A stretch of 64,000 nt of DNA from contig NZ_AP018042.1 in NCBI RefSeq assembly GCF_002356295.1, positions 4,930,361-4,994,360 of the forward strand, written 5' to 3'. Positions within the stretch are counted from its first letter, which is position 1. Every line of letters begins with the position of its first letter. A program made the position numbers and the translations under genes. Shown here one piece after another: positions 6,621 through 28,348 of this stretch. This stretch comes from Labilibaculum antarcticum. Lineage in GTDB: Bacteria; Bacteroidota; Bacteroidia; Bacteroidales; Marinifilaceae. The notes beneath the pieces are model-generated. The model was not told the DNA's origin. It saw nothing but the letters and a program-made list of their open reading frames with translations, and did no database searches.

Positions 6621-6657
6621 AAGTTCCATGTGGCAACTATAATTGAATTATATACAC

Positions 6658-7434: not shown

Positions 7435-7562
7435 AGTAATCAATTTTTGTAGGGAGACTTATCATGAAATTCATGATTTGCAGGTAGTGTAGATAGGTTT
7501 TGCTTAGCTCAAATGGAAGAGTTATACCTGATAAAAACAATAAAATTAAAACAATATATAAT

Positions 7563-8891
7563 ATGGATTTGATCCGAAAAATGGAAAATGTAAGTGTCTT
7601 AGGCGCCGCTGGTAAAATGGGAAGCGGTATTCTTGTTTTGTTGTCTCTTGAAATGGCCAAATTAAAATTGGGTAAAAAAGAGGATAAGGAATTTGTATTA
7701 AACGCAATTGATGTATCACAATCTGCTTTAAGCAATTTGTTGGGTTATGTGAAAACGCAATTGCTAAAGCACGCTGAAAAAAATATAGTTGAATTGCGCA
7801 CTTGGTATCAGGATCGCGAGGATTTAATTGATAACGAAGAAATCATCAATCAGTTTGTGGATGATGTAATGGCAATGATACAAACATCGACTCGTATTGA
7901 AACGGCTTATGACTCGCAATTGATATTTGAAGCAATTAAAGAGGACAAAGCATTAAAAGTGAAATTGTTCTCACAAATCAAACAAAACAATCCAAATGCC
8001 TGGTTCTTAACCAATACTTCATCCATTCCAATTGGGGGAATCGAAAAAGAGGCCGGTTTACATGGGGATGTCATAGGATATCATTTTTACAATCCTCCGG
8101 TAATTCAAAAATTGCTGGAGATTATTAAAACAGACAATACGAATGATGATTTAGCTGCCTTTTCGGTGAATTTGGCCAAAACGATGCGCAAAATTGTTGT
8201 TCAATCAAGAGATATTGCCGGATTTATTGGAAATGGTCACTTTATGCGTGATGCATTGTATGCGTTGAAGCTGGCTGGAGAATTAGCTAAAACCGAAGGA
8301 TGGGCGAAAGCTTTTTTCTTAGTTGACACCATCAGTCGTGATTTATTGATTCGACCTATGGGAATCTTTCAATTGCTGGATTATGTGGGAATTGATGTTA
8401 CCCGATTTATACTGGAGAGTATGCAGCCATCATTTCCAAATGAGACCTTATCAAATGCTGTTTTGAATCAGATGTTTGATAATGAAGTGAGAGGTGGTCA
8501 GTATGCCGATGGATCGCAAAAGGATGGTATTTTTAAATATCAGAAAGGCAGAATAATGGAAGTTTACGATTTGGAGCAGGGAAAATACATTTTAACCGAA
8601 GGCATAGAAATGGATTGCGCCGCAATTTTGGGCGAATTACCAACTCTTAAAGTCTATTGGAAATCTGTTGTTCGCGATCCGAATAAAGCTGATGTCTTGC
8701 AGAAATTTTTTACTGAACTGCATCAAATTGGTAGTGTTGGAGCCAATTTGGCTATTGCTTATGGTAAAAACTCCAAAGCCATCGGTCAAATGCTTGTTGA
8801 TACGAAAGTTGCTGAATCAAAAGAAGATGTGAATACCGTTATGGAAACAGGTTTCTTCCATGCATACGGACCCATTAACGAGTATTTTTAA
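7563..8891 (+). CDS. Divergent 3-hydroxyacyl-CoA dehydrogenase
   Basis: The 442-residue protein has an N-terminal Rossmann NAD site (VLGAAGKMGSGI). NTSSIPIGGIE and GYHFYNPPVIQKLLEII correspond to the NTSS and HFFNP catalytic regions of 3-hydroxyacyl-CoA dehydrogenases, and RDIAGFIGNGHFMRD corresponds to the loop before the C-terminal helical domain. The chain is about 150 residues longer than typical short monofunctional enzymes (about 285) and carries an insertion after the first strand (about 25-110). It would oxidise 3-hydroxyacyl-CoA to 3-ketoacyl-CoA with NAD+. The ATG at 7563 is preferred to an upstream TTG at 7500, which would add an unlikely leader. The gap 7435-7562 has a near-perfect palindrome at 7461-7477 (ATCATGAAATTCATGAT). 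Confidence 0.82.
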   Translation: MDLIRKMENVSVLGAAGKMGSGILVLLSLEMAKLKLGKKEDKEFVLNAIDVSQSALSNLLGYVKTQLLKHAEKNIVELRTWYQDREDLIDNEEIINQFVDDVMAMIQTSTRIETAYDSQLIFEAIKEDKALKVKLFSQIKQNNPNAWFLTNTSSIPIGGIEKEAGLHGDVIGYHFYNPPVIQKLLEIIKTDNTNDDLAAFSVNLAKTMRKIVVQSRDIAGFIGNGHFMRDALYALKLAGELAKTEGWAKAFFLVDTISRDLLIRPMGIFQLLDYVGIDVTRFILESMQPSFPNETLSNAVLNQMFDNEVRGGQYADGSQKDGIFKYQKGRIMEVYDLEQGKYILTEGIEMDCAAILGELPTLKVYWKSVVRDPNKADVLQKFFTELHQIGSVGANLAIAYGKNSKAIGQMLVDTKVAESKEDVNTVMETGFFHAYGPINEYF

Positions 8892-8980: not shown

Positions 8981-10225
8981 ATGAACGCTTTACGTAAAAA
9001 AACATACATGACAGCCGGTTACAATACCATTTCAATGGGAACCGGAAGAAATGAATTTCATCCTAAAAAGCCGCGACCGGGTTTGGAGGATTACATCAGG
9101 GAAGCTGGACAAGCGAGCTTGAAGATGATTGGTGGAGCTGAAAATGTTGATGAAGGAGTGATTGGAAATTTTATGGCGGCTCGATTCAATAAGCAAGCTA
9201 ATTTGCCTGCTTTTCTGCCTATGATTGATGCTGGCTTGAAGTACAAACCAGCCGTTAGCGTGGAAGGTGCTTGTGCATCTGGTGGTTTAGCTCTTACAAC
9301 AGGAATTAAATCCATCTTGGCAGAAACGGCTGATGTTGTACTTGCTCTTGGTTTTGAAGTTCAGAATACCATGAAGGCGATGTACGGAGCTGATGTTCTT
9401 GCAGGTGCAGGATGGCAAAACTCACGTAAAGAGGGTCATGCTTACTTTTTTCCAGGTGCGTTTAGTGATCGTGCGGGTGCTTACTACAAAAAGTTTGGCC
9501 GGGAAACCGCTCGTAAGGCTATGGCTAAATGGTATTGCAATGCCATTGAAAATGCCCGCTTGTGCGAAACAGCTCAGGAATTCCACAATACCAATAAAGA
9601 TCTGGAGGGAACGGCAAACACCCCTGTAAATCCAAGAGGCTTTGTTGATCATTTAAATGTTTTTGATTGTTCTAAGGTTTCTGATGGTGCTTCGGCAATT
9701 GCAATAGTTTCGGAAGAAGGTTTAAGAAAAATCGGATTAGACGTAAAAGATGCAGTTGAAATAGTAGGTTTTGCACATGCTGTCGCAGATATAACACAGA
9801 AACCTGAGAACATGACCAGTTTGTCGACCATGAAAGTGGCCGCAGAGAAGGCAATGGCAATGGCTGGAATTACTATTGATCAATTAGGAACTGTTGAGGT
9901 TCACGATTGTTTTTCCATTGCTGGGATTATGGCTCTGGAGGCTATTGGTTTTGCCGAAGAGGGAAAAGGTAGTGAATTCGTATTGGCAGGTCACACTGCC
10001 AGATGTGGGAAAATTCCGGTGAACACAACAGGTGGTTTAATTGGCTGGGGGCATCCAACTGGTGCAACCGGAGTACATCAGGCTGTAACCATTTGGGAGC
10101 AATTGACAGGAAAAGCAGGAAAAGCACAAATTGAAATAACAAAGGAAAAACCATATGCAATGTCTGTAAACATGGGCGGAGATGATAAGTCTTTGGTAGC
10201 TATTGTTTACAAACGTGGAGAATAA
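8981..10225 (+). CDS. SCP-x-like thiolase (acetyl-CoA acyltransferase)
   Basis: The 414-residue thiolase-fold protein has the nucleophilic cysteine in VEGACASGG (Cys98), the second conserved segment EVHDCFS and the C-terminal GGLIGWGHPTGATG histidine loop. This arrangement (HDCFS rather than NEAFA) places it with SCP-x/non-canonical thiolases, not with FadA or biosynthetic AtoB. It would cleave a 3-ketoacyl-CoA with free CoA, giving acetyl-CoA plus a shortened acyl-CoA. Its position after crotonase and hydroxyacyl-CoA dehydrogenase supports that role. In other organisms members act on branched or sterol side-chain substrates, so the substrate here is not fixed. The start is the ATG at 8981. 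Confidence 0.88.
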   Translation: MNALRKKTYMTAGYNTISMGTGRNEFHPKKPRPGLEDYIREAGQASLKMIGGAENVDEGVIGNFMAARFNKQANLPAFLPMIDAGLKYKPAVSVEGACASGGLALTTGIKSILAETADVVLALGFEVQNTMKAMYGADVLAGAGWQNSRKEGHAYFFPGAFSDRAGAYYKKFGRETARKAMAKWYCNAIENARLCETAQEFHNTNKDLEGTANTPVNPRGFVDHLNVFDCSKVSDGASAIAIVSEEGLRKIGLDVKDAVEIVGFAHAVADITQKPENMTSLSTMKVAAEKAMAMAGITIDQLGTVEVHDCFSIAGIMALEAIGFAEEGKGSEFVLAGHTARCGKIPVNTTGGLIGWGHPTGATGVHQAVTIWEQLTGKAGKAQIEITKEKPYAMSVNMGGDDKSLVAIVYKRGE

Positions 10226-10329: not shown

Positions 10330-11469
10330 ATGAATTTTGAATTTACTGAAGAGCAATTAATGATTCGGGATGCGGCGCGAGATTTTGCACAACGCGAGTT
10401 GCTTCCAGGAGTAATTGAACGGGACGATAAAGCAGAGTATCCAACGGAGCAAGTTAAGCGTTTAGCTGAACTGGGCTTTTTAGGAATGCTGGTTGGGCTT
10501 GAATATGATGGTGGTGGAATGGATACCATATCTTACGTTTTGGCTATGGAAGAGATTTCAAAAGTTGATTCCTCCGTTTCTGTAATCATGTCGGTAAACA
10601 ATTCATTGGTTTGCTGGGGGGTAGAAAAATATGGTACTGAAGAACAAAAGCAGAAATTTCTAAAGCCAATGGCCCGAGGCGAAAAAATCGGAGCTTTCCT
10701 TTTATCGGAACCAGAGGCAGGTTCTGATGCAACATCGCAAAGAACTACTGCCGTTGATATGGGCGATCATTATTTGGTAAATGGCACCAAAAATTGGATC
10801 ACCAATGGGAATTCAGCTTCTACTTACATTGTAATGGCCCAAACTCATCCGGAATTAAAACACAAGGGCATCAACGCCTTGCTTGTTGATGCCAAATCGG
10901 AAGGTGTTTTTGTCGGTCCACATGAAAATAAAATGGGAATGCGGGCATCAGATACCTGCTCTGTAATGTTCAATAATGTTAAAGTCCCAAAGGAAAATCG
11001 TTTAGGTGAAGAAGGTTTTGGATTTAAATTGGCCATGCAATCACTGGAAGGCGGTAGAATAGGAATTGCTTCTCAGGCTCTTGGAATTGCTTCTGGTGCT
11101 TACGAATTGGCATTAAAATATGCACAGGAAAGAAAAGCTTTCGGGAAAGAGATTATCCATCATCAGGCAATCGCATTTAAATTAGCCGATATGGCAGTGG
11201 AGATTGAGGCTGCTCGATTCTTCTGTTTAAAAGCTGCCTGGTTAAAAGATCAGGGACAACCCTACGGACATGCAAGTGCTATGGCAAAATTGTATGCTGC
11301 CGAAACTGCAATGAAGGTAACCACCGAGGCAGTTCAGATTCACGGAGGATATGGATATGTGAAGGAATATCATGTGGAACGCCTAATGCGTGATGCAAAG
11401 CTAACTCAGATCTATGAAGGCACTTCGGAGATTCAAAAGATCGTTATTTCCAGAGGATTAATGGGTTAG
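10330..11469 (+). CDS. Acyl-CoA dehydrogenase, short/medium-chain type
   Basis: The 379-residue flavoprotein is of standard acyl-CoA dehydrogenase length. It has the N-terminal helical domain, the FAD/substrate signature GAFLLSEPEAGSDA, NGTKNWITNG, and the C-terminal QIHGGYGY and QIYEGTSEIQ. The catalytic base is Glu363 in YEGTSEI, the SCAD/MCAD position; the alternative base position used by isovaleryl-CoA dehydrogenase is a glycine (SLEGGR). It therefore fits butyryl-CoA dehydrogenase and hands electrons to EtfAB, whose genes follow directly. A 104-base purine-rich spacer separates it from the thiolase. Confidence 0.92.
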   Translation: MNFEFTEEQLMIRDAARDFAQRELLPGVIERDDKAEYPTEQVKRLAELGFLGMLVGLEYDGGGMDTISYVLAMEEISKVDSSVSVIMSVNNSLVCWGVEKYGTEEQKQKFLKPMARGEKIGAFLLSEPEAGSDATSQRTTAVDMGDHYLVNGTKNWITNGNSASTYIVMAQTHPELKHKGINALLVDAKSEGVFVGPHENKMGMRASDTCSVMFNNVKVPKENRLGEEGFGFKLAMQSLEGGRIGIASQALGIASGAYELALKYAQERKAFGKEIIHHQAIAFKLADMAVEIEAARFFCLKAAWLKDQGQPYGHASAMAKLYAAETAMKVTTEAVQIHGGYGYVKEYHVERLMRDAKLTQIYEGTSEIQKIVISRGLMG

Positions 11470-11634
11470 AAGCTATTGATAAAGAATCAATTAAAATTAC
11501 TAATTGATTGTAAATAAGTGATAAATAGATTGTTATTTAAATAGATAGATTAAGTTGATTGTTAATATAAACTGCTGTAGCCGGATTAGTCTTTACACTA
11601 TTATTTCGGTGCCAGATACTAAAAATAAATGCAT

Positions 11635-14764: not shown

Positions 14765-14836
14765 TTTGTTTAATTATCTGTAGTGGAGTTGGTTGAGGCG
14801 TTTTAAGATAAGTTGTACTTTAATTACTGTTTTGAA

Positions 14837-15650: not shown

Positions 15651-18600
15651 ATGACAGCAAACACGACATACAAGCTTAAAAATACAGTTCGGATTGTAAC
15701 AGCAACTTCGCTTTTCGATGGACATGATGCATCGATTAATATCATGCGAAGAATTATTCAGTCTTCTGGAGCTGAAGTGATTCATTTGGGACACAACCGC
15801 TCTGCCGAAGAGATTGTGGATTGTGCTATTCAAGAAGATGTACAAGCCATTGCCATAAGCTCTTACCAGGGTGGGCATATGGAATTCTTTAAGTACATGT
15901 ATGATTTGTTGCAGCAAAAAAATGCCGGACACATTCGTATTTTTGGAGGTGGCGGAGGAGTAATTCTACCATCTGAAATTAAAGAGCTGGAAGCTTACGG
16001 AATTGCTGGTTTGTATTCTCCTGATGATGGTCGTAACCTCGGTTTGCAAGGAATGATTAATGAGGTTTTGGAGCAATCGGATTACTCATTGAATGATTTT
16101 GAATTGCCAAAAGCATCAGAAATTACTAGTGAGAACGTTAATTTGCTATCAAGGTTAATCACCTTGGCTGAACATGATCTACTTCAGGATTCTGATTTAT
16201 ATCTTGAATTGAAGAGTAGTGCTAAAGTCAATCAGACACCTGTTATTGGAATTACCGGTACAGGCGGAGCTGGAAAGTCTTCCTTAACGGATGAATTGAT
16301 CCGTAGAGTTCATATCGATTATCCAGAATTGAAACTGGCAATCCTTTCTGTAGATCCTTCAAGGAAAAAGAGTGGTGGCGCATTGCTAGGTGATCGAATC
16401 CGCATGAATGCCATTAATCATCCAAACATATATTTGAGATCTTTGGCTACGCGTCGTGCTAATCTTGCATTGTCGAAACATGTTGATGATGCTTTGATTT
16501 TGATGAAATCAGCAGGATTTGATTGTATTTTCCTTGAAAGTTCAGGAATTGGACAGTCGGATACGGAAATTGTTGATTACAGCGATGTGAAATTGTATGT
16601 GATGACCCCCGAATTTGGGGCGGCAACTCAGTTGGAGAAAATTGATATGCTCGATTTTGCTGATTTGATTGCCATTAACAAGTTCGACAAACAAGGGGCT
16701 CAGGATGCTTTGCGCGATGTGAAAAAGCAATATCAGAGAAATAACCTTCTGTGGGATCGAAATCCGGACGATATGCCAGTTTATGGCACAGTTGCTTCTC
16801 AGTTTAACGATCATGGCGTAAACGAGCTCTATCATGCCTTAATTCAGTTTTTAAACTCGAGTAATGCTGCCGGTTTTGCGCAGAATGGGAAACCTCTTCT
16901 TGAGGCGAGTCAAAAGATCGAAATTGTACCACCAGCCAGGGTAAGATATCTCTCAGAGATCTCTGAAACGGTAAGAAGATACAATCGAAAGGCTGAAGAG
17001 CAATCTGAAATTGCAGATCAATTGTATGCTTTAGATAAGTCTATTGAGATAATTGAAGGTGATGGTGTTAGAGATGTCTTGTTGCGAAAAAAACAATCTC
17101 TTTCGAAAGGATTTAAGCATCAGAATATTATAGATTCCTGGGAAGAAAAGAAAAAAAGATACAAAGACGACACCTTTCAATATAAGGTTCGTGGCAAAGA
17201 GTTATCGGTGGAAACACATTTTGAAACTCTTTCGCAAACCCGGATTCCTAAGATTGTATTGCCTGGCTATAGAAGTTGGGGCGATATCGTAAAATGGAAT
17301 CTAAAAGAAAATGTTCCCGGCGAATTTCCTTACGCAGCAGGCGTTTTCCCGTTCAAACGGGAAGGCGAAGACCCAACAAGAATGTTTGCAGGAGAAGGAT
17401 CACCGGAAAGAACGAACAAGCGATTTCATTATTTGGCCTTAGGTCAACCAGCGGTTCGACTATCAACGGCATTCGATTCGGTAACCTTGTATGGTGCCGA
17501 TCCAGATTATCGACCTGATATTTACGGAAAAGTTGGAAATGCAGGTGTTTCTGTAGCATCTCTGGATGACGCCAAGAAACTGTACAGTGGTTTTGATTTG
17601 TGCGATCCGAAAACTTCGGTATCCATGACAATTAACGGGCCGGCTCCTATGTTGGTTGCTTATTACATGAATGTAGCTATCGATCAGGAATGTGAGAAAT
17701 ATATTCGCGCACATGGACTGGAAGATGAGGTTAAAGTAAAACTTGAAGCAATCTTCGCTGGGAAAGACAGAGTCTATTATGTAGGGGATTTGCCAAAAGA
17801 AAATAACGGATTAGGATTGCTTTTATTGGGCGCAACCGGAGATCAGGTATTGCCTGCAGACGTATATCAGAAAATTAAGGCAGAAACCATTTGTAAGATT
17901 CGGGGAACGGTTCAGGCAGATATGCTGAAAGAGGATCAGGCGCAGAATACCTGTATATTCTCTATTGATTTTGCTCTGAAAATGATGGGAGATATTCAGC
18001 AATACTTCAACGAAAACCAGATTCGGAACTTCTATTCGGTTTCTATTTCAGGATATCATATTGCAGAGGCTGGAGCCAATCCAATTTCTCAATTAGCATT
18101 TACATTATCTAACGGATTTACCTTGGTTGAATATTACATTTCAAGAGGTATGAAGGTTGATGATTTTGCACCGAATCTATCCTTCTTTTTCTCCAATGGA
18201 ATGGATCCGGAATATACCGTAATCGGTAGGGTAGCGAGAATAATCTGGGCGAAGGCCATGAAATATCTATATAAGGCCAATAGTCGCTCCCAAAAACTGA
18301 AATATCACATTCAGACTTCGGGTAGATCGCTGCACGCACAAGAAATTGAATTCAATGATATTCGAACAACTTTACAAGCTTTAACTGGAATTTATGATAA
18401 CTGTAATTCTCTTCATACAAATGCCTACGATGAGGCTATTACAACGCCAACAGAGGAGTCGGTAAGAAGAGCAATGGCGATTCAAATCATCATTAATAAA
18501 GAGCTTGGATTGGCCAAGAATCAGAACCCTTTGCAGGGATCATTCATCATCGAAGAATTAACGGATTTGGTAGAGGAAGCTGTTATGGTAGAATTTGATC

Positions 18601-19001
18601 GATTAACGGAACGTGGCGGTGTGTTAGGAGCAATGGAAACCATGTATCAAAGAAGCAAAATACAATCAGAATCTCTGCTTTACGAGAGTTTGAAGCATAG
18701 TGGTGAATTACCAATTGTTGGTGTGAATACATTTTTAAACTCAAAAGGTTCTCCTACAGTTCAGCCAAAGGAAGTCATTCGTTCCGATGAGGAAGAGAAA
18801 GTCAATCAGGTGAAATTTAAAGACTTAGTACATAGGAATCAGAAGGAAAAGGCTGTAAAGGCATTGGAAGAGTTGAAAGAGACGGCCTTGAAGAATGAAA
18901 ATGTATTTGCCTCTTTAATGGAAGTTTGCAAATTCTGCACACTCGGTCAAATAACCGATGCATTGTATGAGGTTGGTGGTCAATATAGAAGGAATATGTA
19001 A
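15651..19001 (+). CDS. icmF: Fused isobutyryl-CoA mutase IcmF
   Basis: The 1116-residue three-part fusion has an N-terminal cobalamin-binding domain (about 9-140) with the lower-ligand motif DGHD (Asp23, His25) and a MeaI-like G-protein chaperone (about 195-430) with P-loop GTGGAGKS (203-210) and NKFD (343-346). Its mutase TIM barrel (about 520-1070) contains [20 protein letters not shown]. That last segment matches isobutyryl-CoA mutase rather than methylmalonyl-CoA mutase, which has a TYR-containing PYTRG..PTMY segment. IcmF interconverts isobutyryl-CoA and n-butyryl-CoA and can also act on isovaleryl-CoA/pivalyl-CoA. Here it would feed valine-derived isobutyryl-CoA into the adjacent butyryl-CoA beta-oxidation genes. 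It needs adenosylcobalamin and GTP. Confidence 0.93.
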
Positions 19002-19108: not shown

Positions 19109-20716
19109 TTGAATCAAATAGAATCAAAAATAAACGTAAAATCTGCGGATTTCTTGAATAATAAGAAGTCTTACGAGAAATTGATGAAAGAATATCGCCA
19201 TCGATTAAAGTCAATAATGCATGGTGTTGATGAAAAAGCCAAAGAGCGTCATTTGAAGCGCGGAAAGTTATTGGTAAGAGATCGCATTGAGTTGTTGTTA
19301 GATAAGAATACTCCTTTTTTAGAACTATCAGCAATGGCTGCTTGCGACCAATACGAAAATCAATTTCCTTCAGCAGGCATTGTGACTGGTATTGGCGTAA
19401 TTCATGGCAGAGAGTGCGTGATTGTTGCTAATGATGCAACGGTGAAAGGTGGAACTTACATCAAGGAAACCATTAAGAAGCACATTCGTGCACAGGAAAT
19501 TGCCATGGAAAACCATTTAGCTTGTATCTATATGGTCGATTCGGGAGGTGTTTTTCTTCCAGAGCAATCGAAGGTTTTTCCTGATAAGTATGATTTTGGG
19601 CGATTTTTCTTCAATCAATCGAAAATGTCGGCCAGAGGAATTCCTCAAATCTCCATTGTAATGGGATCGTGTACTGCAGGTGGAGCGTACGTTCCGGCCA
19701 TGAGTGATGAAACCATTATTGTAAGAGGACAAGGAACCATTTTTATTGGCGGACCTCCATTGGTGAAGGCTGCAACAGGTGAGGATGTTACTGCCGAAGA
19801 ATTAGGTGGTGCCGAAATGCATACTTCCATTTCAGGAGTTGCAGATCATCTGGCTGAAAATGACCGACATGCGGTTCAGATTTGCCGAGATATATTCGAA
19901 TCGATGCCTAAGGTGCGGAAATTTGGATTGGAAAGAGAAGAAGTGAAAGCACCGGCATATCCCGCTGATGAATTGTACGGATTGGCTCCAATTGACCTGA
20001 AAAAAGCAATTGATGCCCACGAATTGATAGCAAGAATTGTTGATGGAAGTTCATTTCAGGAATTTAAAGAGCGTTATGCTCCAAGCATAGTTACTGGCTT
20101 TGCTAAGATCATGGGCTTTCCGGTTGGAATTATAGCCAATAATGGCATTATTTTCTCTGAGACATCGCTTAAGGCGGCACATTTTATTGAATTGTGCTGT
20201 TTTCGTAAAATTCCGTTGATCTTCTTGCAGAACATTACTGGTTTTATGGTGGGGAAAGAGTATGAGCACAAAGGAATTGCCCGTGATGGAGCCAAAATGG
20301 TTCATGCAGTTGCAAATGCTCAGGTTCCTAAGTTCACCGTAATTGTTGGTGGCTCTTTTGGAGCAGGAAACTACGCTATGGCAGGACGCGCCTATGAACC
20401 CAGATTGTTGTTTATGTGGCCCAATGCCAAGATTTCAGTAATGGGTGGCGAACAGGCTGCAGGTGTTTTGGTGCAGGTGAAAGAACAACAACTTCAGAAA
20501 AGAGGGAAGAAATTTCCTATGGCGGAGCAAAATAATCTAAAAGAGAGCATTTTAGCAAAATATGAAGAGGAAGGTTCAGCCTATTACAGTACATCACGTT
20601 TGTGGGACGATGGAATTATTGATCCGGCCGATACAAGAAAGATATTGGCGATGGGAATAGCTGCTTCCGTGAATAAAGAGTTTGGGGAACCGGATTTTGG
20701 TGTGTTTAGGATGTAA
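19109..20716 (+). CDS. Methylcrotonyl-CoA-type carboxylase, carboxyltransferase (beta) subunit
   Basis: The 535-residue carboxyltransferase aligns from memory closely with methylcrotonyl-CoA carboxylase beta (MccB/LiuB) and geranyl-CoA carboxylase beta (AtuC). Key segments are NDATVKGGTYIKETIKKHIR, VDSGGVFLPEQ, MGSCTAGGAYVPAMSDE, GTIFIGGPPLVKAATGEDV, LQNITGFMVGKEYEHKGIA and GGSFGAGNYAMAGRAYEPR. It transfers CO2 from biotin to the gamma carbon of a 3-methyl-2-enoyl-CoA. The start is TTG at 19109: the conserved N terminus (SKINVKSADF) begins there and no ATG is available. Its biotin-carrying partner is encoded at 21664. MCC and geranyl-CoA carboxylase cannot be told apart by eye. Confidence 0.9.
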   Translation: MNQIESKINVKSADFLNNKKSYEKLMKEYRHRLKSIMHGVDEKAKERHLKRGKLLVRDRIELLLDKNTPFLELSAMAACDQYENQFPSAGIVTGIGVIHGRECVIVANDATVKGGTYIKETIKKHIRAQEIAMENHLACIYMVDSGGVFLPEQSKVFPDKYDFGRFFFNQSKMSARGIPQISIVMGSCTAGGAYVPAMSDETIIVRGQGTIFIGGPPLVKAATGEDVTAEELGGAEMHTSISGVADHLAENDRHAVQICRDIFESMPKVRKFGLEREEVKAPAYPADELYGLAPIDLKKAIDAHELIARIVDGSSFQEFKERYAPSIVTGFAKIMGFPVGIIANNGIIFSETSLKAAHFIELCCFRKIPLIFLQNITGFMVGKEYEHKGIARDGAKMVHAVANAQVPKFTVIVGGSFGAGNYAMAGRAYEPRLLFMWPNAKISVMGGEQAAGVLVQVKEQQLQKRGKKFPMAEQNNLKESILAKYEEEGSAYYSTSRLWDDGIIDPADTRKILAMGIAASVNKEFGEPDFGVFRM

Positions 20717-20730
20717 ACACTCCCCTTAAT

Positions 20731-20782
20731 CCCCTCTCAAGAGGGGAATCACAATGTGTTAAAGTCCCCCCTTTGAAGGGGG
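20731..20782. repeat. G/C-rich hairpin pair between carboxylase and hydratase genes
   Basis: Two short hairpins lie back to back in an otherwise AT-rich spacer: CCCCTCTCAAGAGGGG (20731-20746) and CCCCCCTTTGAAGGGGG (20766-20782), followed by ATACAGGGGGATG. This looks like the common Bacteroidota interspersed 'cccctttgaaggggg-tacagggggatg' element. A fragment, ACAGGGGGATG, recurs at 24000-24010. Confidence 0.65.
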
Positions 20783-20821
20783 ATACAGGGGGATGTTTGA
20801 TTGATATTAAAATATAAACTA

Positions 20822-21622
20822 ATGAAACAATTTAAAACAATAGAATTTAATATAGAAGACAAAATTGGAACGATTAGCTTGAATCGTCCTGAGATACATA
20901 ATGCCTTTAATGAGGTGATGATTGCTGAAATCATTGATTGTTTCGAAGAAATTGAAAAGATGAATTACGATTGTATCAGGGTTGTGATCATGAGAGGTAA
21001 AGGAAAATCTTTCTGCGCTGGGGCTGATCTCAAATGGATGAAAGGGGTTGCCAATTATTCATATCAGGAAAACTATCTGGAGAGTTATAAGCTATCGATG
21101 TGCTTTAATGCTGTTTACTCCTGCAAGTTTCCCACGATTGCTTTAGTGCATGGTGCGGCAATTGGTGGAGCGAATGGATTATTGGCGGCCTGCGATTTTG
21201 TTCTGGCACATAAAAATACAGTTTTCTCATTAAGCGAAGTGAAAATCGGCATTGTTCCGGCTTGTATATCTCCTTACGTGATGAAACGGGTTGGTGAATA
21301 CAAATCTAAAGAATTGATGCTGACAGGTATGAGATTCAACGGTAAAAAGGCAAAGGAAGCAGGTTTGGTGAATTGGTCGTTTGGTGAAAAGAAGCTAAAT
21401 GCAAAATTAGAGGATTTGATTTCAATGCTAAAATCGAGTGGTCCCATTGCAGTTTCTACCTGCAAGCAATTGCTGTACGATGTGGAGAATGTTTGGAATC
21501 ATGAAGAAACAATGGAAAATACAGCTAAAATGATTGCTGAATTGCGTCAATCGGATGAAGGTCAGGAAGGAATGAGTTCATTTCTGGAGAAACGGAAACC
21601 CAATTGGACAGAAAATAATTAA
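20822..21622 (+). CDS. Methylglutaconyl-CoA hydratase-like crotonase
   Basis: The 266-residue crotonase-family protein has the oxyanion-hole region FCAGADLKWMKG. The first catalytic Glu position of classical crotonases is replaced (GGANGLLAACDF), while the second Glu is kept in SLSEVKIGIVPACISPYV. The ISPYV signature and single Glu match LiuC/AtuE-type hydratases, which hydrate 3-methylglutaconyl-CoA or isohexenylglutaconyl-CoA. Its place between the two carboxylase subunit genes supports that reaction. The ATG at 20822 is preferred to a TTG at 20801. It is distinct from the crotonase at 6658, which keeps both glutamates. Confidence 0.85.
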   Translation: MKQFKTIEFNIEDKIGTISLNRPEIHNAFNEVMIAEIIDCFEEIEKMNYDCIRVVIMRGKGKSFCAGADLKWMKGVANYSYQENYLESYKLSMCFNAVYSCKFPTIALVHGAAIGGANGLLAACDFVLAHKNTVFSLSEVKIGIVPACISPYVMKRVGEYKSKELMLTGMRFNGKKAKEAGLVNWSFGEKKLNAKLEDLISMLKSSGPIAVSTCKQLLYDVENVWNHEETMENTAKMIAELRQSDEGQEGMSSFLEKRKPNWTENN

Positions 21623-21663
21623 CAATTAATAATTTTTCATTGTCGATTACTAATTGAATAAAA

Positions 21664-23649
21664 ATGTACTACAAAAGACTACTAATAGCGAATCGTGGCG
21701 AAATTGCCCTAAGAATCATGCGAACAGCAAGAGACCTGGGTATTCATACCATTGCGCTGTATACTGAACTCGATCGGCAGGCAGAGCACGTATTGCAAGC
21801 CGATGAAGCATATCCGTTGCAGGGAAATAACTTGCAGGAAACATATCTTAATTTAAATCAGATCGTTGAAATTGCACGAAAAGCAAAAGCGGATGCCATT
21901 CATCCAGGATATGGATTTTTAGCTGAGAATGCAGTTTTTTCTCAATTATGTGCTGATAATGGAATTGATTTTGTGGGTCCGGATGCTAACGCAATCGAAT
22001 TGATGGGGAATAAGGTAAATGCCCGTGAATTTGCCAAGTCGATTGGTGTACCTGTGTTAGAAGGGGTGATTGGGGACATTAAGGAATTGATTACTGCGGC
22101 AAATGAAATGCAGTTTCCGCTTTTGATTAAAGCTGCTGCTGGTGGTGGTGGCAAAGGAATGCGCATCGTTCATAAAAAAGAGGATTTAAAAGGGGCATTG
22201 GAATCAACATCTCGCGAAGCAACAACTTATTTTGGTGATGGGACAGTTCTGATAGAAAGATATGTTCAAAATCCACGTCATATAGAAGTTCAGATTTTAG
22301 CAGACAAACATGGAAATGTGGTGCATTTATTTGAGCGTGAATGCTCTATTCAGAGACGATTTCAAAAAGTGATTGAGGAAGCTCCTTCGCCAACTTTAAC
22401 GCCTGAATTGAGGAAGGAAATGGGCAATATGGCTGTGTTTTTGGCTCAGGAAATGAGTTACACCAATGCAGGAACAATTGAGTTTTTGGTTGATGAGGAC
22501 TTGAATTACTACTTTCTGGAGATGAACACAAGAATTCAGGTGGAACATCCGGTAACGGAAATGATTACTGGAATTGATTTGGTGGAAGAGCAGTTAGCAA
22601 TTGCTTCGGGGCGAAAGCTGAAGTTGAGACAAGAAGATATTCACATGAAGGGACATGCTATTGAAGCGAGGATTTATGCGGAAGATCCAGAAAATGAGTT
22701 CATCCCATCGCCAGGTGAAATAAGTTTTTACAAAGCGCCTAAATTGTTTGAGGGGCGACTGCGTCTGGATTCCGCCATAGTGGGGCCATGTACGATACAT
22801 CCTGATTACGATCCGATGATAGCAAAATTGGTAGTTTGGGACGAAAACAGGGATTTGGCCATTGAAGGCTTGCATCATGCCTTGCACAATTACGAGATAC
22901 ATGGAATCAAAAATAACATCATGTATTTGCATACTTTGTTGAATACCAGCTATTTTAAACGAAATAAGATCTCAACCCATTTTTGTCAGAATCATAACGA
23001 TGAGTTGATGCAAAAAATGAAGGAAGATAAGCTTGAAATACCAGCATTCCTTTTTCAAATCAGCTTTGCTTTGTTTGAGTTGAACAGAGAGAAGGTCGAT
23101 TCAATTTGGGAAGAGATTGGTTATTGGAGACAGCAGGGAACAAAACTTAGAATTGTAGATGAGGAAGTACTTGATATTGAAATAATCAGCAAAAACCCAT
23201 ACAATATAAAAATTTACAATACTAATTATATTATTGATAATGTGAGTATTGATGGCTTTCAATTAATGTTGGAGTTTAATGGTGTCAGATATCAGTTTTA
23301 CCAATCGAAAAATACAGAGGGAAAGAGCTTTGTGAGTTGTCAGGGGATAGTTCGTGAGATGATTCGATGGTCGGAGATTCAATCCAATATAGGAGATGTT
23401 GGGGTTTCTGATCAGAAAGAAGGTGATGGAAGAATTTTATCACCAATGCCTGGCAGAGTGGTTAAGATTGAAGCCAAAACGGGACAGATAGTGGCTAAAG
23501 GTGATGTACTGATTATTGTGGAAGCCATGAAGATGGAGAATAGTATTTTGGCTCCGTTTGGAGGTGTTATAGGAAATGTTTTTGTGAGTGAGGGGGATCA
23601 GGTGAAGAACGCAATGGAGTTAATAAAATTGGAAGCAGTTGGAGAATAG
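21664..23649 (+). CDS. Methylcrotonyl-CoA-type carboxylase, biotin carboxylase (alpha) subunit
   Basis: The 661-residue protein has a biotin carboxylase N-terminal domain (YKRLLIANRGEIALRIMRTA), an ATP-grasp domain with the glycine loop AAAGGGGKGMRIV and EMNTRIQVEHPVTEM, a biotin-carboxylase C-terminal domain, a linker region and a C-terminal biotinyl domain with VEAMKMEN (biotinylated Lys623). The length and architecture are those of MccA/LiuD/AtuF. It carboxylates its own biotin using ATP and bicarbonate; the beta subunit at 19109 completes the reaction. It lies 41 bases after the hydratase gene, so the carboxylase-hydratase-carboxylase order matches liuB-C-D and atuC-E-F. Confidence 0.93.
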   Translation: MYYKRLLIANRGEIALRIMRTARDLGIHTIALYTELDRQAEHVLQADEAYPLQGNNLQETYLNLNQIVEIARKAKADAIHPGYGFLAENAVFSQLCADNGIDFVGPDANAIELMGNKVNAREFAKSIGVPVLEGVIGDIKELITAANEMQFPLLIKAAAGGGGKGMRIVHKKEDLKGALESTSREATTYFGDGTVLIERYVQNPRHIEVQILADKHGNVVHLFERECSIQRRFQKVIEEAPSPTLTPELRKEMGNMAVFLAQEMSYTNAGTIEFLVDEDLNYYFLEMNTRIQVEHPVTEMITGIDLVEEQLAIASGRKLKLRQEDIHMKGHAIEARIYAEDPENEFIPSPGEISFYKAPKLFEGRLRLDSAIVGPCTIHPDYDPMIAKLVVWDENRDLAIEGLHHALHNYEIHGIKNNIMYLHTLLNTSYFKRNKISTHFCQNHNDELMQKMKEDKLEIPAFLFQISFALFELNREKVDSIWEEIGYWRQQGTKLRIVDEEVLDIEIISKNPYNIKIYNTNYIIDNVSIDGFQLMLEFNGVRYQFYQSKNTEGKSFVSCQGIVREMIRWSEIQSNIGDVGVSDQKEGDGRILSPMPGRVVKIEAKTGQIVAKGDVLIIVEAMKMENSILAPFGGVIGNVFVSEGDQVKNAMELIKLEAVGE

Positions 23650-23674
23650 GGATTAACCGCTAAGCGTAAGTCTC

Positions 23675-23879
23675 CTGCAAGTTGCAGAAAAGAAATATAG
23701 AGTGTGTAATGCTTGCTGCAGGTTGCAGGAAGATAAAGTACAGGGTGTGTAATGCTTGCCGCAAGGTGGAGGAAGAAAATACGGAGTGTGTAATGCTTGC
23801 CGCAAAGGTGGAGGAAGAAAAATACAGGGTGTGTAATGCTTGCCGCAAAGGTGGAGGAAGAAAATACAGAGTGTGTAAT
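23675..23879. repeat. Tandem repeat, about five units of 41-43 bases
   Basis: The phrase GTGTGTAATGCTTGC followed by TGCAGGTTGCAGGAAG or CGCAAAGGTGGAGGAAG is repeated about 4.9 times. Units 3 to 5 are nearly identical and the first two more diverged. The array lies immediately after the biotin carboxylase stop. Its length is not a multiple of three throughout, and the reading frames across it are not conserved, so it does not encode a repeat protein. The remainder of the 428-base gap 23650-24077 holds a palindrome and no gene. Confidence 0.85.
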
Positions 23880-24028
23880 CACTAAATGATTAATGGGAAT
23901 TGACCAAGACGAAAGAATTTTACGATAAATGGATATGATTGAAACATGATACTTATACTTTGAAAATATGAAACGTCCATGCCAAAGTGATTTTGACACA
24001 CAGGGGGATGATTATTCCAGCATGGTAA

Positions 24029-24046
24029 TCCCGAAAGCTTTCGGGA
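24029..24046. repeat. Perfect 18-base palindrome upstream of the AtuA gene
   Basis: TCCCGAAAGCTTTCGGGA is a perfect inverted repeat 32 bases before the AtuA-family start codon. It follows a fragment of the ACAGGGGGATG element. It may be another interspersed palindrome, a leader hairpin or an operator; the sequence alone does not decide. Confidence 0.6.
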
Positions 24047-24077
24047 CCATATGACAAAAACTTAAAATTATAAACAT

Positions 24078-25895
24078 ATGAAAGACAAAATCAGAATTGC
24101 AAATGCCGGTGGTTTCTGGGGCGATGACCTTGGAGTACTTAGAAGACAGTTGGAAGGTGGAGATGTGGACTACATATCTTCTGATTTTTTAGCTGAAGTA
24201 ACGATGAGTATTCTTCGTAAACAACAGTTAAAAAACGAATCTTTAGGCTATGTAACTGATTTTGTGGATCAGATCGTAGATGTGGCTGATTTAATGAAAG
24301 AGAAAGGTGTAAGAATGATTACAAATGCCGGAGGAATTAATCCAATCGGTTGTGCACGTAAAATTCTTTCAGAATTGAAAAAGAAAGGCATCACTATTAA
24401 AATTGCAGTGGTTGAAGGTGATAATATCATCGAAAGAATAGATGAATTTTATCCTGCCAAAACCAGTTTTAAGAACATGGATACCGGAGATGATTTTAAG
24501 GATATCTTCGAGAACATACAAAGTGCGAATATTTATTTGGGTGTGCCTCCTTTATTAAAGGCTTTAGCGAGTGGAGCCGATTTGATACTGGCTGGCCGCG
24601 TAACCGATACCTCAGTAACTATGGCACCAATGATTTATGAATTGGGATGGAAACTGGATGATTGGGATAAGTTGGCCTCTGGTTTAATAGCCGGTCATAT
24701 TATCGAATGTGGGGCTCAGTCAACAGGTGGCAATTTTACCGATTGGCAAAAAGTTAAACGCTGGGATAACATGGGATATCCTATTGTTGAAATGAATAAA
24801 AATGGTGAATTTACGGTCTATAAGCATGAGAATACCGGCGGTTTAATCAGTATCGATACAATTCGCGAGCAATTGGTATATGAAATGGGCAATCCTGCTC
24901 AATATATCAGTCCTGATGTTGTCGCCGATTTTAGTCAATTAGTATTGAAAGAGCAAGGTGAAAATCGTGTATTGGTGAAAAATGCAAAAGGTCATCCATC
25001 CACTCCATATTTAAAAGTTTCGATGGCGTTTGAAGATGGATACAAAGCGACAAGCTCTATCGTAATTAGCGGTGGCAAAGTATTACTTAAAGCACAAGAG
25101 TTCGAGAAAATATTTTGGCAACGTTTAAAGCACTCTTATTTAAAGAAAAATACTGAATTTGTTGGATACAATGCTTGTCATCAGCATTTGGCTGAAGATA
25201 TCAATCCCAATGAAATATTACTGCGATTATCAGTTTACGATACTGATGTTTCAAAAATCAAAGACTTTTCGATGAGTATTGCTCCGTTGATCTTGAGCGG
25301 ACCTCCTGGAGTTGCCGTAATAGGTGGTAGAGCTAGAATGCAACAGGTTATTACTTATTGGCCTACTTTAATTCCCAAAACTTGTATCTCCTCGATGGTT
25401 TACGTTTTGGATAAAGAGGGAGAAATTAAAGAAACATCAGAAATACCATCTGTTTTAGGAAATGAACAGGAATTAGTAGCAACACAATCATCGAATTCTT
25501 ATCATGACAATGTGAAAAAGGAAAAAGGCAGAAAAATGTGTGCTGTTCCATTTAGAGATATATGTTTGGCTCGTTCCGGAGATAAGGGCGATACCGTAAA
25601 TGTTGGGGTATTGGCTAGATCCAAAGAGGTATATGAATTCCTGAAAACGGAACTAACTTCAGAAAGAATTACGAATATGTTTTTCGGATTATCAAAAGGC
25701 AAAGTAACAAGATTTGAAATTGATAATTTAATGGCTCTGAATTTTTTGTTGGAAGAAGCTTTAGATGGTGGTGGAACTAAATCATTAATGATTGATGCTC
25801 AGGGTAAAATGTTTGCATCTGCACTGTTGAATCAAGAGGTTGTGGTTCCTGATGATGTTCTCGCCACTATATTATCCGGGGAATTTCAAAAATAA
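24078..25895 (+). CDS. AtuA-family (DUF1446) protein
   Basis: The 605-residue protein has the AtuA/DUF1446 domain (about 4-455) with the N-terminal signature IANAGGFWGDD, then ITNAGGINPIGCA, LGVPPLLKAL, ILAGRVTDTSVTM and GGNFTDW. It is joined to the C-terminal AtuA-like domain (about 490-600) beginning DICLARSGDKGDTVNVGVLAR. In Pseudomonas atuA belongs to the acyclic terpene utilisation cluster, but its reaction is not established. Here it lies where liu leucine clusters usually carry HMG-CoA lyase, after the carboxylase and hydratase genes and before an acyl-CoA dehydrogenase. Cytoplasmic, with no signal peptide. The family is certain; the function is unknown. Confidence 0.9.
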   Translation: MKDKIRIANAGGFWGDDLGVLRRQLEGGDVDYISSDFLAEVTMSILRKQQLKNESLGYVTDFVDQIVDVADLMKEKGVRMITNAGGINPIGCARKILSELKKKGITIKIAVVEGDNIIERIDEFYPAKTSFKNMDTGDDFKDIFENIQSANIYLGVPPLLKALASGADLILAGRVTDTSVTMAPMIYELGWKLDDWDKLASGLIAGHIIECGAQSTGGNFTDWQKVKRWDNMGYPIVEMNKNGEFTVYKHENTGGLISIDTIREQLVYEMGNPAQYISPDVVADFSQLVLKEQGENRVLVKNAKGHPSTPYLKVSMAFEDGYKATSSIVISGGKVLLKAQEFEKIFWQRLKHSYLKKNTEFVGYNACHQHLAEDINPNEILLRLSVYDTDVSKIKDFSMSIAPLILSGPPGVAVIGGRARMQQVITYWPTLIPKTCISSMVYVLDKEGEIKETSEIPSVLGNEQELVATQSSNSYHDNVKKEKGRKMCAVPFRDICLARSGDKGDTVNVGVLARSKEVYEFLKTELTSERITNMFFGLSKGKVTRFEIDNLMALNFLLEEALDGGGTKSLMIDAQGKMFASALLNQEVVVPDDVLATILSGEFQK

Positions 25896-26023
25896 ATCTA
25901 GAATGGAATTTGCGAAATCATTGATAGTTGCTAACTTAATATTTGTGAATGAGGAAGCGTAGAGATTGAAGTGGCAGGGATATTTCCTCATTCCTGGATA
26001 ATTAATTACTAATAGAAATATAT

Positions 26024-27169
26024 ATGCTTCCATATTTGAATGATGAACATGATACGATAAGAAAGGCTGTTCGGGATTTTGCCGAACGGGATATAAAACC
26101 ATTGGCTCAGGAACTAGACGAGAAAGAGGAGTTTTCTATTGAATTAACCCAAAAAATGGGCGAAATGGGATTGTTTGGCATGACACTTCCTGAAAAATAT
26201 GGAGGACATAATACCGATTATTTGTCTTATATAATTGCAGTTGAGGAAATTGCAAGGGTTGATGGTTCGCATGCAGCCACACTTGCGGCTCATAATTCGT
26301 TGGGAATTGGCCCATTGTATGAATTTGGCAATGAAGAGCAAAAATTAAAATATCTACCCGGACTTTGTTCTGGTAAAGAACTGTGGGCGTTCGGATTGAC
26401 AGAACCTGAAGCTGGTTCTGATTCCCGGGGATCAAAAACATTTGCAAAAGACAAAGGTGATCGTTGGGAGATTAACGGTTCGAAAATCTTTATTACAAAT
26501 GGATCAACTCCTTTGTGTTCGGGTGTAACAGTTCAGGCGGTTACAGCAATAAAGGGTAATGAAAAAGAATTCACGACTTTTATTGTAGAAAAAGGAACAT
26601 CTGGCTGGACATCCAAAGCCATGCATGGTAAAATGATGTGGAGGGCTTCGGATACGTCCGAAATGTTCTTTGATGACTGCAGCATTCCAAAAGAAAATAT
26701 TCTGGGAGTGCGTGGCATGGGCTCTAAAGTCATGTTGAAAACCTTGGATTCAGGAAGACTATCTATTGCCGCGATGGGACTTGGATGTGCTCAGGGTGCT
26801 TACGAATTGGCTCTTGCTTATGCAAAAGAGAGAAAGCAATTTGGGAAAACACTGTCGAAATTTCAAGCCATTTCGTTTAAATTAGCCGATATGGCTCTGA
26901 AAATTGAATTGGCAAGGAATTTACTATACAAAGCATGTTGGTTGAAAGATATTGGCGAAGAATACGGAAAAGAAGCTGCTATGGCTAAATTGTATTGTTC
27001 CGAAATAGCAAAGGAAGTTGCCGATGAAGCTGTTCAGATTCATGGAGGATATGGTCTAATGAAAGAATATCCGGTGGAACGATTTTATCGTGATCAAAGA
27101 TTGTTGCAAATTGGAGAAGGAACATCTGAAATTCAAAGAATGGTTATCTCAAGATATATTGGATGCTAA
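26024..27169 (+). CDS. Second acyl-CoA dehydrogenase of the cluster
   Basis: The 381-residue acyl-CoA dehydrogenase has the FAD/substrate motifs FGLTEPEAGSDSRGS, INGSKIFITNG, QIHGGYGLMKEYPVERFYRD and QIGEGTSEIQ. The catalytic base is at the SCAD/MCAD position (Glu365 in EGTSEI). The alternative position used by isovaleryl-CoA dehydrogenase is glycine (TLDSGR rather than LDLER). From position alone it would be called LiuA (isovaleryl-CoA dehydrogenase) or AtuD (citronellyl-CoA dehydrogenase); the residue pattern argues against canonical LiuA. Electrons would pass to EtfAB encoded upstream. The start is the ATG at 26024. Confidence 0.9.
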   Translation: MLPYLNDEHDTIRKAVRDFAERDIKPLAQELDEKEEFSIELTQKMGEMGLFGMTLPEKYGGHNTDYLSYIIAVEEIARVDGSHAATLAAHNSLGIGPLYEFGNEEQKLKYLPGLCSGKELWAFGLTEPEAGSDSRGSKTFAKDKGDRWEINGSKIFITNGSTPLCSGVTVQAVTAIKGNEKEFTTFIVEKGTSGWTSKAMHGKMMWRASDTSEMFFDDCSIPKENILGVRGMGSKVMLKTLDSGRLSIAAMGLGCAQGAYELALAYAKERKQFGKTLSKFQAISFKLADMALKIELARNLLYKACWLKDIGEEYGKEAAMAKLYCSEIAKEVADEAVQIHGGYGLMKEYPVERFYRDQRLLQIGEGTSEIQRMVISRYIGC

Positions 27170-27271: not shown

Positions 27272-28348
27272 ATGAGTAGAGAACTGATACTTGCCTTAAA
27301 TCCGCGAATGCAATTTACACGAATAGCTGTTTATCGGATGAACTCTCCGGTTTTTTTGAAGAAAATTAACCACAAACCTGAAGAGCTTACTGATTTTAAA
27401 TGCTTTTGCGATCAAACGAAATATCGTGCAAAAATCATTATGGATGAGTTAAAGGCTAATGATATATATCTTGAGGAAATAAAAATTATAATTGGCCGGG
27501 GTGGACTTCTTAAACCAGTTAAATCAGGAGTCTATAGAGTTAATGAGGCCATGGTTAAGGATCTCTCGAATTGTGAGTTTGGCAATGATGTTGTTAATTT
27601 AAGTGGATTGCTTGCCTACGCAATTTCGGAGCAAATTGATGGGGCAGATGCTTTTGTTGCTGATCCTGTTGTGGTTGATGAATTGGAGGACATAGCGAGA
27701 ATTACAGGGAGGCCTGAGTTTAAAAAGCGCTCCATTTTTCATGCATTGGATCAAAAAACAAGTGCAAGAAGATATGCTCAATCTGTCTTTAAAAAGTACG
27801 AAGATTTGAATTTGATTATTGCTCATTTGGGTGGAGGAATTAGTATCGGAGCTCATAAAAAGGGGAGAGTCGTTGATTCAAATCAGGCATATGATGGAGA
27901 TGGTCCCTTTTCTCCTATTCGAAGTGGTAGTTTGCCCATGGGCGAAATGATTCAAATGTGTTTCTCGGGTAAATATTCACAAGAGGAATTGCTGAAAATG
28001 CAAACTGGTGAAGGTGGATTGTATGCCTATTTCAATACGTATAGCGGATTTGATGTTTGTAAAATGAGGGATGCTGGTGATTCTAAAGCCAAAGAGGTCT
28101 TGTCGGCAATGGCTTATCAGGTAGCCAAATCAATAGGTTCTATGTATCCTGTATTTGGGGAGGAAGCTGTTGATGCAATAATTATAACCGGAGGAATGGC
28201 CAAAGATGAAACCTTTGTTCGGGAAATTAGAATGAGAGTAGAAAAAATTGCATCTGTTACTATTTATCCTGGAGCTGAAGTGCTAAGTGCACTAAGTGAT
28301 TATGGCAGAATGATTTTGCGGAATGAGACTGAAATATTAGATTATTAG
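27272..28348 (+). CDS. buk: Butyrate kinase
   Basis: The 358-residue ASKHA-fold kinase has the butyrate kinase signature IIAHLGGGISIGAHKKGRVVDS, then GPFSPIRSGSLP and the C-terminal IIITGGMAKDE adenosine motif. It converts butyryl phosphate plus ADP to butyrate plus ATP, or the reverse; relatives also use isobutyrate and other branched short-chain acids. No phosphotransbutyrylase gene is visible next to it, so the acyl-CoA to acyl-phosphate step must be encoded elsewhere. As the last gene of the acyl-CoA cluster it gives a route between acyl-CoA and free short-chain acid with substrate-level ATP formation. A terminator follows at 28376. Confidence 0.92.
   Translation: MSRELILALNPRMQFTRIAVYRMNSPVFLKKINHKPEELTDFKCFCDQTKYRAKIIMDELKANDIYLEEIKIIIGRGGLLKPVKSGVYRVNEAMVKDLSNCEFGNDVVNLSGLLAYAISEQIDGADAFVADPVVVDELEDIARITGRPEFKKRSIFHALDQKTSARRYAQSVFKKYEDLNLIIAHLGGGISIGAHKKGRVVDSNQAYDGDGPFSPIRSGSLPMGEMIQMCFSGKYSQEELLKMQTGEGGLYAYFNTYSGFDVCKMRDAGDSKAKEVLSAMAYQVAKSIGSMYPVFGEEAVDAIIITGGMAKDETFVREIRMRVEKIASVTIYPGAEVLSALSDYGRMILRNETEILDY

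Follow-up and report, generated by a model that had tools for sequence, protein, structure and literature searches.

How does leucine degradation end in a bacterium that has a methylcrotonyl-CoA carboxylase (MCC) and in which no hydroxymethylglutaryl-CoA (HMG-CoA) lyase is found? The question is raised by a five-gene block of the marine bacterium Labilibaculum antarcticum, which lies in a window of 64 000 nucleotides (positions 4,930,361–4,994,360 of the one-contig, 5.72 Mb genome of this member of the Bacteroidota). All coordinates are those of the window unless stated otherwise. We consider it probable, at about three chances in four, that the block is a leucine/isovalerate module in which AtuA serves as a non-orthologous replacement for HMG-CoA lyase and would yield acetate and acetoacetyl-CoA. 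The replacement rests on comparative genomics; the products, and any role of ATP, we infer.

Gene content of the block and substrate of the carboxylase

Five intact genes on the forward strand occupy 19109–27169. They encode MccB, the MCC beta subunit (19109..20716; Carboxyl_trans, 506 bits); a LiuC/AtuE-like hydratase with a single catalytic-type Glu (20801..21622; ECH_1, 181 bits), a putative 3-methylglutaconyl-CoA hydratase; MccA, with biotin carboxylase and biotinyl domains (21664..23649; PF02786, PF00289, PF02785 and PF00364); AtuA, a one-chain fusion of the AtuA and AtuA_ferredoxin domains (24078..25895; PF07287, 460 bits, and PF23544, 90 bits); and an acyl-CoA dehydrogenase (26024..27169), proposed to be an isovaleryl-CoA dehydrogenase of non-LiuA type. 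An earlier note on this DNA had given the same genes, order and coordinates, with an atuA-type gene instead of that for HMG-CoA lyase, a single-Glu hydratase and a dehydrogenase that keeps its Glu and lacks the LiuA base. All of this holds, each gene having the expected Pfam domains, but the limits given there are too narrow for the unit, which runs from about 6643 to 28348.

Like the Liu cluster, the block has both MCC subunits, a hydratase and an acyl-CoA dehydrogenase, and its first three genes follow what we take to be the order liuB–liuC–liuD. It differs in having AtuA where the Liu cluster has the HMG-CoA lyase LiuE, and in its dehydrogenase. With the Atu cluster of Pseudomonas and Thauera it shares an AtuA accompanied by a carboxylase pair, a hydratase and an acyl-CoA dehydrogenase; in contrast to that cluster, its carboxylase is of MCC rather than geranyl-CoA carboxylase (GCC) type, and no HMG-CoA lyase was found in its genome.

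Against solved MCC beta chains, MccB scored 696 bits for the mitochondrial/human type (8j4z), 694 bits for the Pseudomonas type (3u9r group) and 578–609 bits for three more chains, compared with 462 bits for GCC beta (5ikl). Passages of Jurado et al. (PMC4673880) distinguish MCC from GCC by a Phe, which is Gly in GCC, and by a three-residue insertion preceding this Phe in MCC; propionyl-CoA carboxylase (PCC) is described there as differing from both in having no long N-terminal helix. In the Phe region MccB aligns without gaps to the MCC chains, keeping the MCC length, and it has the Phe, which was matched via position 191 of the human chain on the assumption that this chain is the reference of the published number. 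The alignment also starts at its first residues and takes in a long N-terminal stretch, a feature that is missing from PCC according to the same passages. Because of these three features, the substrate of MccB is most likely 3-methylcrotonyl-CoA and that of the pathway isovaleryl-CoA, from leucine or isovalerate, as judged from sequence. MccB is therefore of the type expected in a canonical Liu pathway and lacks the Gly that marks the carboxylase of the Atu pathway; identity as a GCC was rejected, since score, length and Phe are all of MCC type.

The hydratase retains one Glu (SLSEVKIG) and presumably has IGGANGL at the site of the other usual crotonase Glu. Its best NCBIfam model was gamma-carboxygeranoyl-CoA hydratase, at 234 bits below the cut-off of 426, and it scored only 120 bits against 4zu2, a putative isohexenylglutaconyl-CoA hydratase.

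HMG-CoA lyase and LiuA in the genome

Searches with PF00682 and NF004283 detected no HMG-CoA lyase, either within the block or elsewhere in the one-contig genome. The best score genome-wide against NF004283, the hydroxymethylglutaryl-CoA lyase model, was 50.7 bits (cut-off 246). The five PF00682 matches comprised a NifV-like gene beside a NifB-like gene (judged by eye), two in open frames of 523–526 codons, presumably the size of isopropylmalate/citramalate synthases, and two within one frame of 1183 codons. AtuA itself showed no HMGL-like domain, PF07287 and PF23544 being the only domains seen.

No LiuA-type isovaleryl-CoA dehydrogenase was present among the seven acyl-CoA dehydrogenase matches in the genome. 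We take the marks of LiuA to be LDLER and G[AG]GTSE, with no Glu in the GTSE motif; the six matches that were aligned have neither, and in the seventh, a distant one (L013, E 1.4e-6), the C-terminal site is FEGANE. The earlier note had taken an HMG-CoA lyase together with a canonical LiuA, encoded outside the block, as the sign of an ordinary leucine pathway; both were sought in the genome, and neither was found. The block dehydrogenase is nearest to 5ol2 among solved chains (393 bits) and scores 252–278 bits against chains named isovaleryl-CoA dehydrogenase. Its relatives (62 and 58 % identity) lie near MccB in two loci without AtuA, both from the set of MccBs that is sister to that of the window, one from a genome with HMG-CoA lyase (L183) and one from a genome with neither gene (L187). 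In both, MccB also lies near the fused isobutyryl-CoA mutase/GTPase IcmF and a relative of the other dehydrogenase of the operon (10330..11469). This indicates that the presence of the block dehydrogenase follows that of the carboxylase, not that of AtuA.

Another relative of this dehydrogenase (65 % identity) heads a mevalonate cluster in the same genome (genome positions 2573000–2590000; L206, 5156–11735), with a type 2 isopentenyl diphosphate isomerase-like gene, HMG-CoA reductase, GHMP kinases and diphosphomevalonate decarboxylase. This points tentatively to a connection between isoprenoids and the metabolism of isovaleryl-CoA and HMG-CoA.

Distribution of AtuA and HMG-CoA lyase in Bacteroidota

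A single set of 395 Bacteroidota genomes, none of which was dropped, was searched for AtuA (152 positive), HMG-CoA lyase (134 positive, E≤1e-40) and MccB (252 positive, E≤1e-100). The lyase matches ranged from 157 to 307 bits, with 43 over the curated cut-off (high class) and 91 at 157–213 bits (low class). Genomes with MccB (n=252) mostly carried one of the two candidate enzymes: AtuA without lyase was found in 132, lyase without AtuA in 106, both in 11 and neither in three (G337, G365 and G369). Among genomes without MccB (n=143), eight had AtuA only, 16 lyase only, one both and 118 neither. A stricter MccB cut (E≤1e-120), which took out eight weak matches, gave 130, 100, 11 and three of 244. 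MccB was present in 143 of the 152 AtuA genomes. By family, the 45 families with MccB divided into 21 with AtuA only, 14 with lyase only, two with both only, two with neither only and six mixed.

In the AtuA group to which the window belongs, the lyase cut-off was reached in none of the 22 searched genomes (L079 and L082 lie outside the set), the best score being 51.8 bits. Further AtuA genomes, representing 16 of the 30 loci L090–L119, had a lyase in two of 16 cases. The exchange of lyase for AtuA seems to extend to many related bacteria.

Outside the Bacteroidota, in the phylum of a Leptospiraceae metagenome-assembled genome (MAG), AtuA was matched in 12 of 150 genomes, six of them strongly. 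HMG-CoA lyase was absent from five of these six genomes, in a search that did not cover MccB, but also from 19 of 20 picked genomes without AtuA, so this result says little. At four loci from this phylum (L213–L216), a fused AtuA with a high score has crotonase-, acyl-CoA dehydrogenase- and MccA-like neighbours, which belong to another lineage (24–43 % identical to those of the window); HMG-CoA lyase is absent in three of the four genomes.

Conservation of the block

A search with two fused AtuAs returned 53 loci. The order MccB–hydratase–MccA–AtuA–dehydrogenase is kept in 16 of the 17 loci L068–L084 (Labilibaculum, Marinifilum, Ancylomarina and kin), the exception being L077, where the start of the contig falls inside the block. 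The same order was found in Melioribacter (L087), a Bacteroidales MAG (L089) and L052 (genome G188). Butyrate kinase is the next gene in 17 of the 18 loci L068–L085, the contig of L070 ending before it. Eleven of the 17 loci contain IcmF; it lies beyond the contig end in L077, is absent from five (four Ancylomarina and one Marinifilaceae MAG) and is therefore not part of the core. In eight genomes of the larger set (G001, G011, G016, G211, G235, G266, G298 and G384), read by eye and not systematically, MccB and AtuA are less than about 1.1 kb apart. Two Leptospiraceae loci (L086 and L088) have the fused AtuA and the dehydrogenase (68–70 % identity); the sole carboxyl-transferase nearby is distant (27 %) and on the opposite strand.

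Fold of AtuA and proposed pathway

AtuA has 605 aa, with both domains over cut-off, and is the only AtuA in the genome. It is 92–95 % identical to the AtuAs of five Labilibaculum records and 82 % identical to that of a sixth. Most of the AtuA matches listed in the 395-genome search are in open frames of about 440–530 codons, which cannot hold both domains; at many loci a small second gene resembling the C-terminal part comes after AtuA.

An AlphaFold2 model of AtuA (32 rows, pLDDT 86.6, pTM 0.87) was compared with the PDB using Foldseek. The only match at E≤0.001 was 9evf_A (E 7.4e-22), from an entry titled 'Citramalate lyase - ADP - pyruvate complex', with TM scores of 0.57 (query length) and 0.74 (target length) and a root-mean-square deviation of 6.0; 9evf_B, the small chain of the same complex, came second (E 7e-3). 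The model therefore has the fold of the large chain of citramalate lyase (CmlAB; 9erq and 9evf) and, more weakly, that of the small chain, although CmlAB consists of two chains and AtuA of one, and the substrate of AtuA would most likely be HMG-CoA. Other matches (PII-like proteins, aspartokinases and others) were weak and were not used. The PDB gives one sequence (9erq/9evf) two names, AtuA family protein and citramalate lyase subunit A (cmlA), and the motifs GR..D and I.EC are common to AtuA and CmlA in a sequence alignment. The C-terminal part of the relative in L089 gave no match in a single-sequence search against the PDB.

According to passages of PMC4682846, citramalate lyase forms acetate and pyruvate, and a DUF1446 gene stands beside methylaspartate ammonia-lyase in Enterobacteriaceae, in which the fate of citramalate was unclear in 2015. 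The AtuA of terpene pathways is tentatively described as an acetate-releasing lyase in parts of PMC4847356 and PMC9973270. In HMG-CoA, isohexenyl-HMG-CoA and citramalate alike, the tertiary carbinol bears a free CH2-COOH, and acetate-releasing chemistry would fit each of them. In the accessible portions of the open-access literature, as distinct from subscription papers and preprints, no link between AtuA and HMG-CoA cleavage was found, and the term 'AtuA family protein' appeared in one transcriptome table only.

In the proposed pathway, isovaleryl-CoA would be oxidized by the dehydrogenase at 26024, as its position suggests; carboxylation by MCC (19109 and 21664) and hydration to HMG-CoA by the hydratase at 20801 are assigned from sequence. 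HMG-CoA would then be cleaved by AtuA (24078), a step to which comparative genomics points. By homology with citramalate lyase, AtuA would most likely cut on the side of the free carboxylate to give acetate and acetoacetyl-CoA, and not the acetoacetate and acetyl-CoA of HMG-CoA lyase. An isobutyryl-CoA branch (IcmF, the dehydrogenase at 10330, a crotonase and a 3-hydroxyacyl-CoA dehydrogenase) would also end at acetoacetyl-CoA, and the thiolase at 8981 could then suffice for both branches. A more specific version is tentative and, on balance, doubtful: AtuA would be an ATP-linked lyase acting on the acetate side, in which the carboxylate is activated, acetyl phosphate (or acetate, ADP and Pi) is released, acetoacetyl-CoA passes directly to the thiolase and butyrate kinase recovers ATP from an acyl phosphate. 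The part played by ATP is suggested only by the ADP of the 9evf complex and by the nearby butyrate kinase gene.

Products of AtuA and acetoacetate activation

The same replacement of HMG-CoA lyase by AtuA could take place with the usual products, acetyl-CoA and acetoacetate, an alternative that differs from our proposal in the products only and that we regard as possible but unlikely. Acetoacetyl-CoA made directly would remove the need for acetoacetate activation. 3-Oxoacid CoA-transferase (SCOT) was therefore searched for with TIGR02429, and AacS with TIGR01217 in 80 chosen genomes. Among MccB genomes, SCOT was found in four of 132 with AtuA only, 76 of 81 with low-class lyase only and one of 25 with high-class lyase only. 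AacS was found in six of 43 with AtuA only, seven of 25 with high-class lyase, four of five with low-class lyase and no SCOT, and none of seven with both AtuA and lyase. One or the other was thus present in seven of 43 AtuA-only, 80 of 81 low-class (AacS having been sought only in the five without SCOT) and eight of 25 high-class genomes. The six AtuA-only genomes with AacS, and the four with SCOT, which include that of L. antarcticum, speak for the usual products. On the other side, neither was found in 36 of the 43 AtuA-only genomes in which both were sought, and the family precedents, citramalate lyase and, tentatively, the terpene-pathway AtuA, release acetate.

Evidence against the proposal and other explanations

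Several observations weigh against the replacement proposal. The alternation of AtuA and lyase is striking, but the counts are clustered by descent and reflect few switches. A tree was built from 70 of the 252 MccBs (30 best-scoring loci and 40 chosen for family spread) with three outgroup rows, and carries a long-branch warning at its root. Three changes suffice to explain the AtuA/lyase label on this tree, so the co-occurrence counts are not independent, and an independent-pairs test was not significant (median P 0.5). One switch adjoins the window: a set of nine MccBs (100/98) splits into two from AtuA genomes, those of the window and G188 (100/99), and seven from other genomes (97/91), of which six have the lyase and one has neither gene. 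The pattern also has exceptions, namely the 11 MccB genomes with both enzymes, four of them in the class of the window (G076, G111, G126 and G190), the three with neither, and the eight genomes that have AtuA with neither MccB nor lyase.

The individual proteins add further points of this kind. The best solved match of MccB is 9tps (713 bits), deposited as the beta subunit of PCC, and the block dehydrogenase, reading TLDSGR and GEGTSEI, has no LiuA base. AtuA and CmlA are only 14 % identical in the structural alignment, and by sequence alone they matched with E 0.007 and 0.015, values that unrelated chains in the same lists equalled. The product test went in the predicted direction but is weak, because high-class lyase genomes also often have neither SCOT nor AacS; outside the class of the window, SCOT or AacS was present in six of 42 versus nine of 26 genomes (P 0.07). 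Finally, a 3-oxoacid CoA-transferase is encoded in the genome of L. antarcticum itself, as part of a cluster for lysine fermentation.

A reading in which AtuA is a citramalate or other hydroxy-acid lyase like CmlAB, placed by chance beside a leucine pathway, with HMG-CoA cleaved by another enzyme or drained into mevalonate, is improbable in our view. It draws on citramalate lyase being the nearest solved structure, on the HMG-CoA reductase and mevalonate genes of the genome, and on the distant AtuAs (33 %) of G076, G126 and G190, which have citrate-transporter-like neighbours and whose genomes carry a lyase as well. Chance placement fits poorly with the presence of MccB in nearly all AtuA genomes (see above), with an association between AtuA and lyase absence that is seen only among MccB genomes, and with a block order conserved across genera and in Melioribacter. 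Three loci of the class of the window (L048, L049 and L050) have a distant AtuA with a split C-terminal domain and a citrate-transporter-like neighbour, in genomes with a lyase; these AtuAs are perhaps a separate hydroxy-acid lyase.

The earlier note had read the block as a hybrid that degrades some other branched acyl-CoA of C5 or longer and not leucine, which we think very unlikely. The canonical Glu of the dehydrogenase in place of the LiuA base and the best model match of the hydratase agree with that reading, but the match is below its cut-off, with the low score to 4zu2, and MccB is of MCC type by score, by length and by the Phe that excludes geranyl-CoA in the passages of PMC4673880. 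Nor was any short-chain dehydrogenase or acyl-CoA ligase domain found with Pfam in the 40 of 54 listed open reading frames of the window that were scanned. The absence of AtuB, AtuG and AtuH from the block, to which the note had pointed, thus stands for these scanned frames, but would be no gap in a leucine/isovalerate pathway. That the pathway is an ordinary one with an incidental atuA and an overlooked HMG-CoA lyase was rejected as extremely improbable, since this would take an exceedingly divergent lyase in a one-contig genome searched with PF00682 and NF004283, the latter finding at least 157 bits in 134 of the 395 genomes against 50.7 bits here.

Surrounding operon and other loci

The genes from 6643 to 28348 appear to form one operon for branched-chain acyl-CoA oxidation, and shared strand and spacing suggest a single transcript. 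Upstream of the block, all on the forward strand, are a crotonase (enoyl-CoA hydratase) of beta-oxidation (6643..7434; PF00378, 228 bits), a 3-hydroxyacyl-CoA dehydrogenase (7500..8891; PF02737/PF00725) and an SCP2-like thiolase (8981..10225; PF22691 Thiolase_C_1 and PF00108) proposed to take acetoacetyl-CoA. These are followed by the first acyl-CoA dehydrogenase, of EGTSEI type by its residues (10330..11469; PF00441 and others), and the EtfB/EtfA pair (11629–12384 and 12481–13446; PF01012 and PF00766). An Fe-S protein (13505–14764) and a CCG-domain protein (14813–15634), with Fer4/CCG domains, may link the electron-transfer flavoprotein to menaquinone. IcmF (15651..19001; NF045497, 1731 bits, cut-off 1500) precedes the block, and butyrate kinase (27272..28348; TIGR02707, 411 bits, cut-off 289) follows it. 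Promoter-like sites (26 versus 30.4 in shuffles) and terminator-like sites (11 versus 6.4, sd 2.4) were not used.

The gap of 428 bp between MccA and AtuA contains an imperfect 43 bp tandem repeat of 4.4 copies (23693–23879). Multihaem CXXCH cytochromes lie close to the operon at 28694–29755 and 36860–37846 and are possible electron outlets; the first is lipoprotein-like, with a collagen-like GxxGxxG stretch. The lysine-fermentation cluster (L205; genome positions 2899000–2918900) comprises kdd, kamA, kamC, lysine 5,6-aminomutase alpha and beta, the 3-oxoacid CoA-transferase and an acyl-CoA dehydrogenase.

Implications

If the proposal is correct, the AtuA family would have a role beyond the degradation of terpenes and citramalate, and three acetate-releasing reactions, on citramalate, isohexenyl-HMG-CoA and HMG-CoA, would be united under one fold. 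The end of leucine degradation would be explained in many bacteria that have MccB and no HMG-CoA lyase, pathways that genome-based tools requiring this lyase would call broken. The predicted products, and with them the energy balance, would change from acetyl-CoA and acetoacetate to acetate and acetoacetyl-CoA. Should the ATP-linked version also be true, about half of the sampled Bacteroidota with MccB would ordinarily finish leucine degradation in this way.

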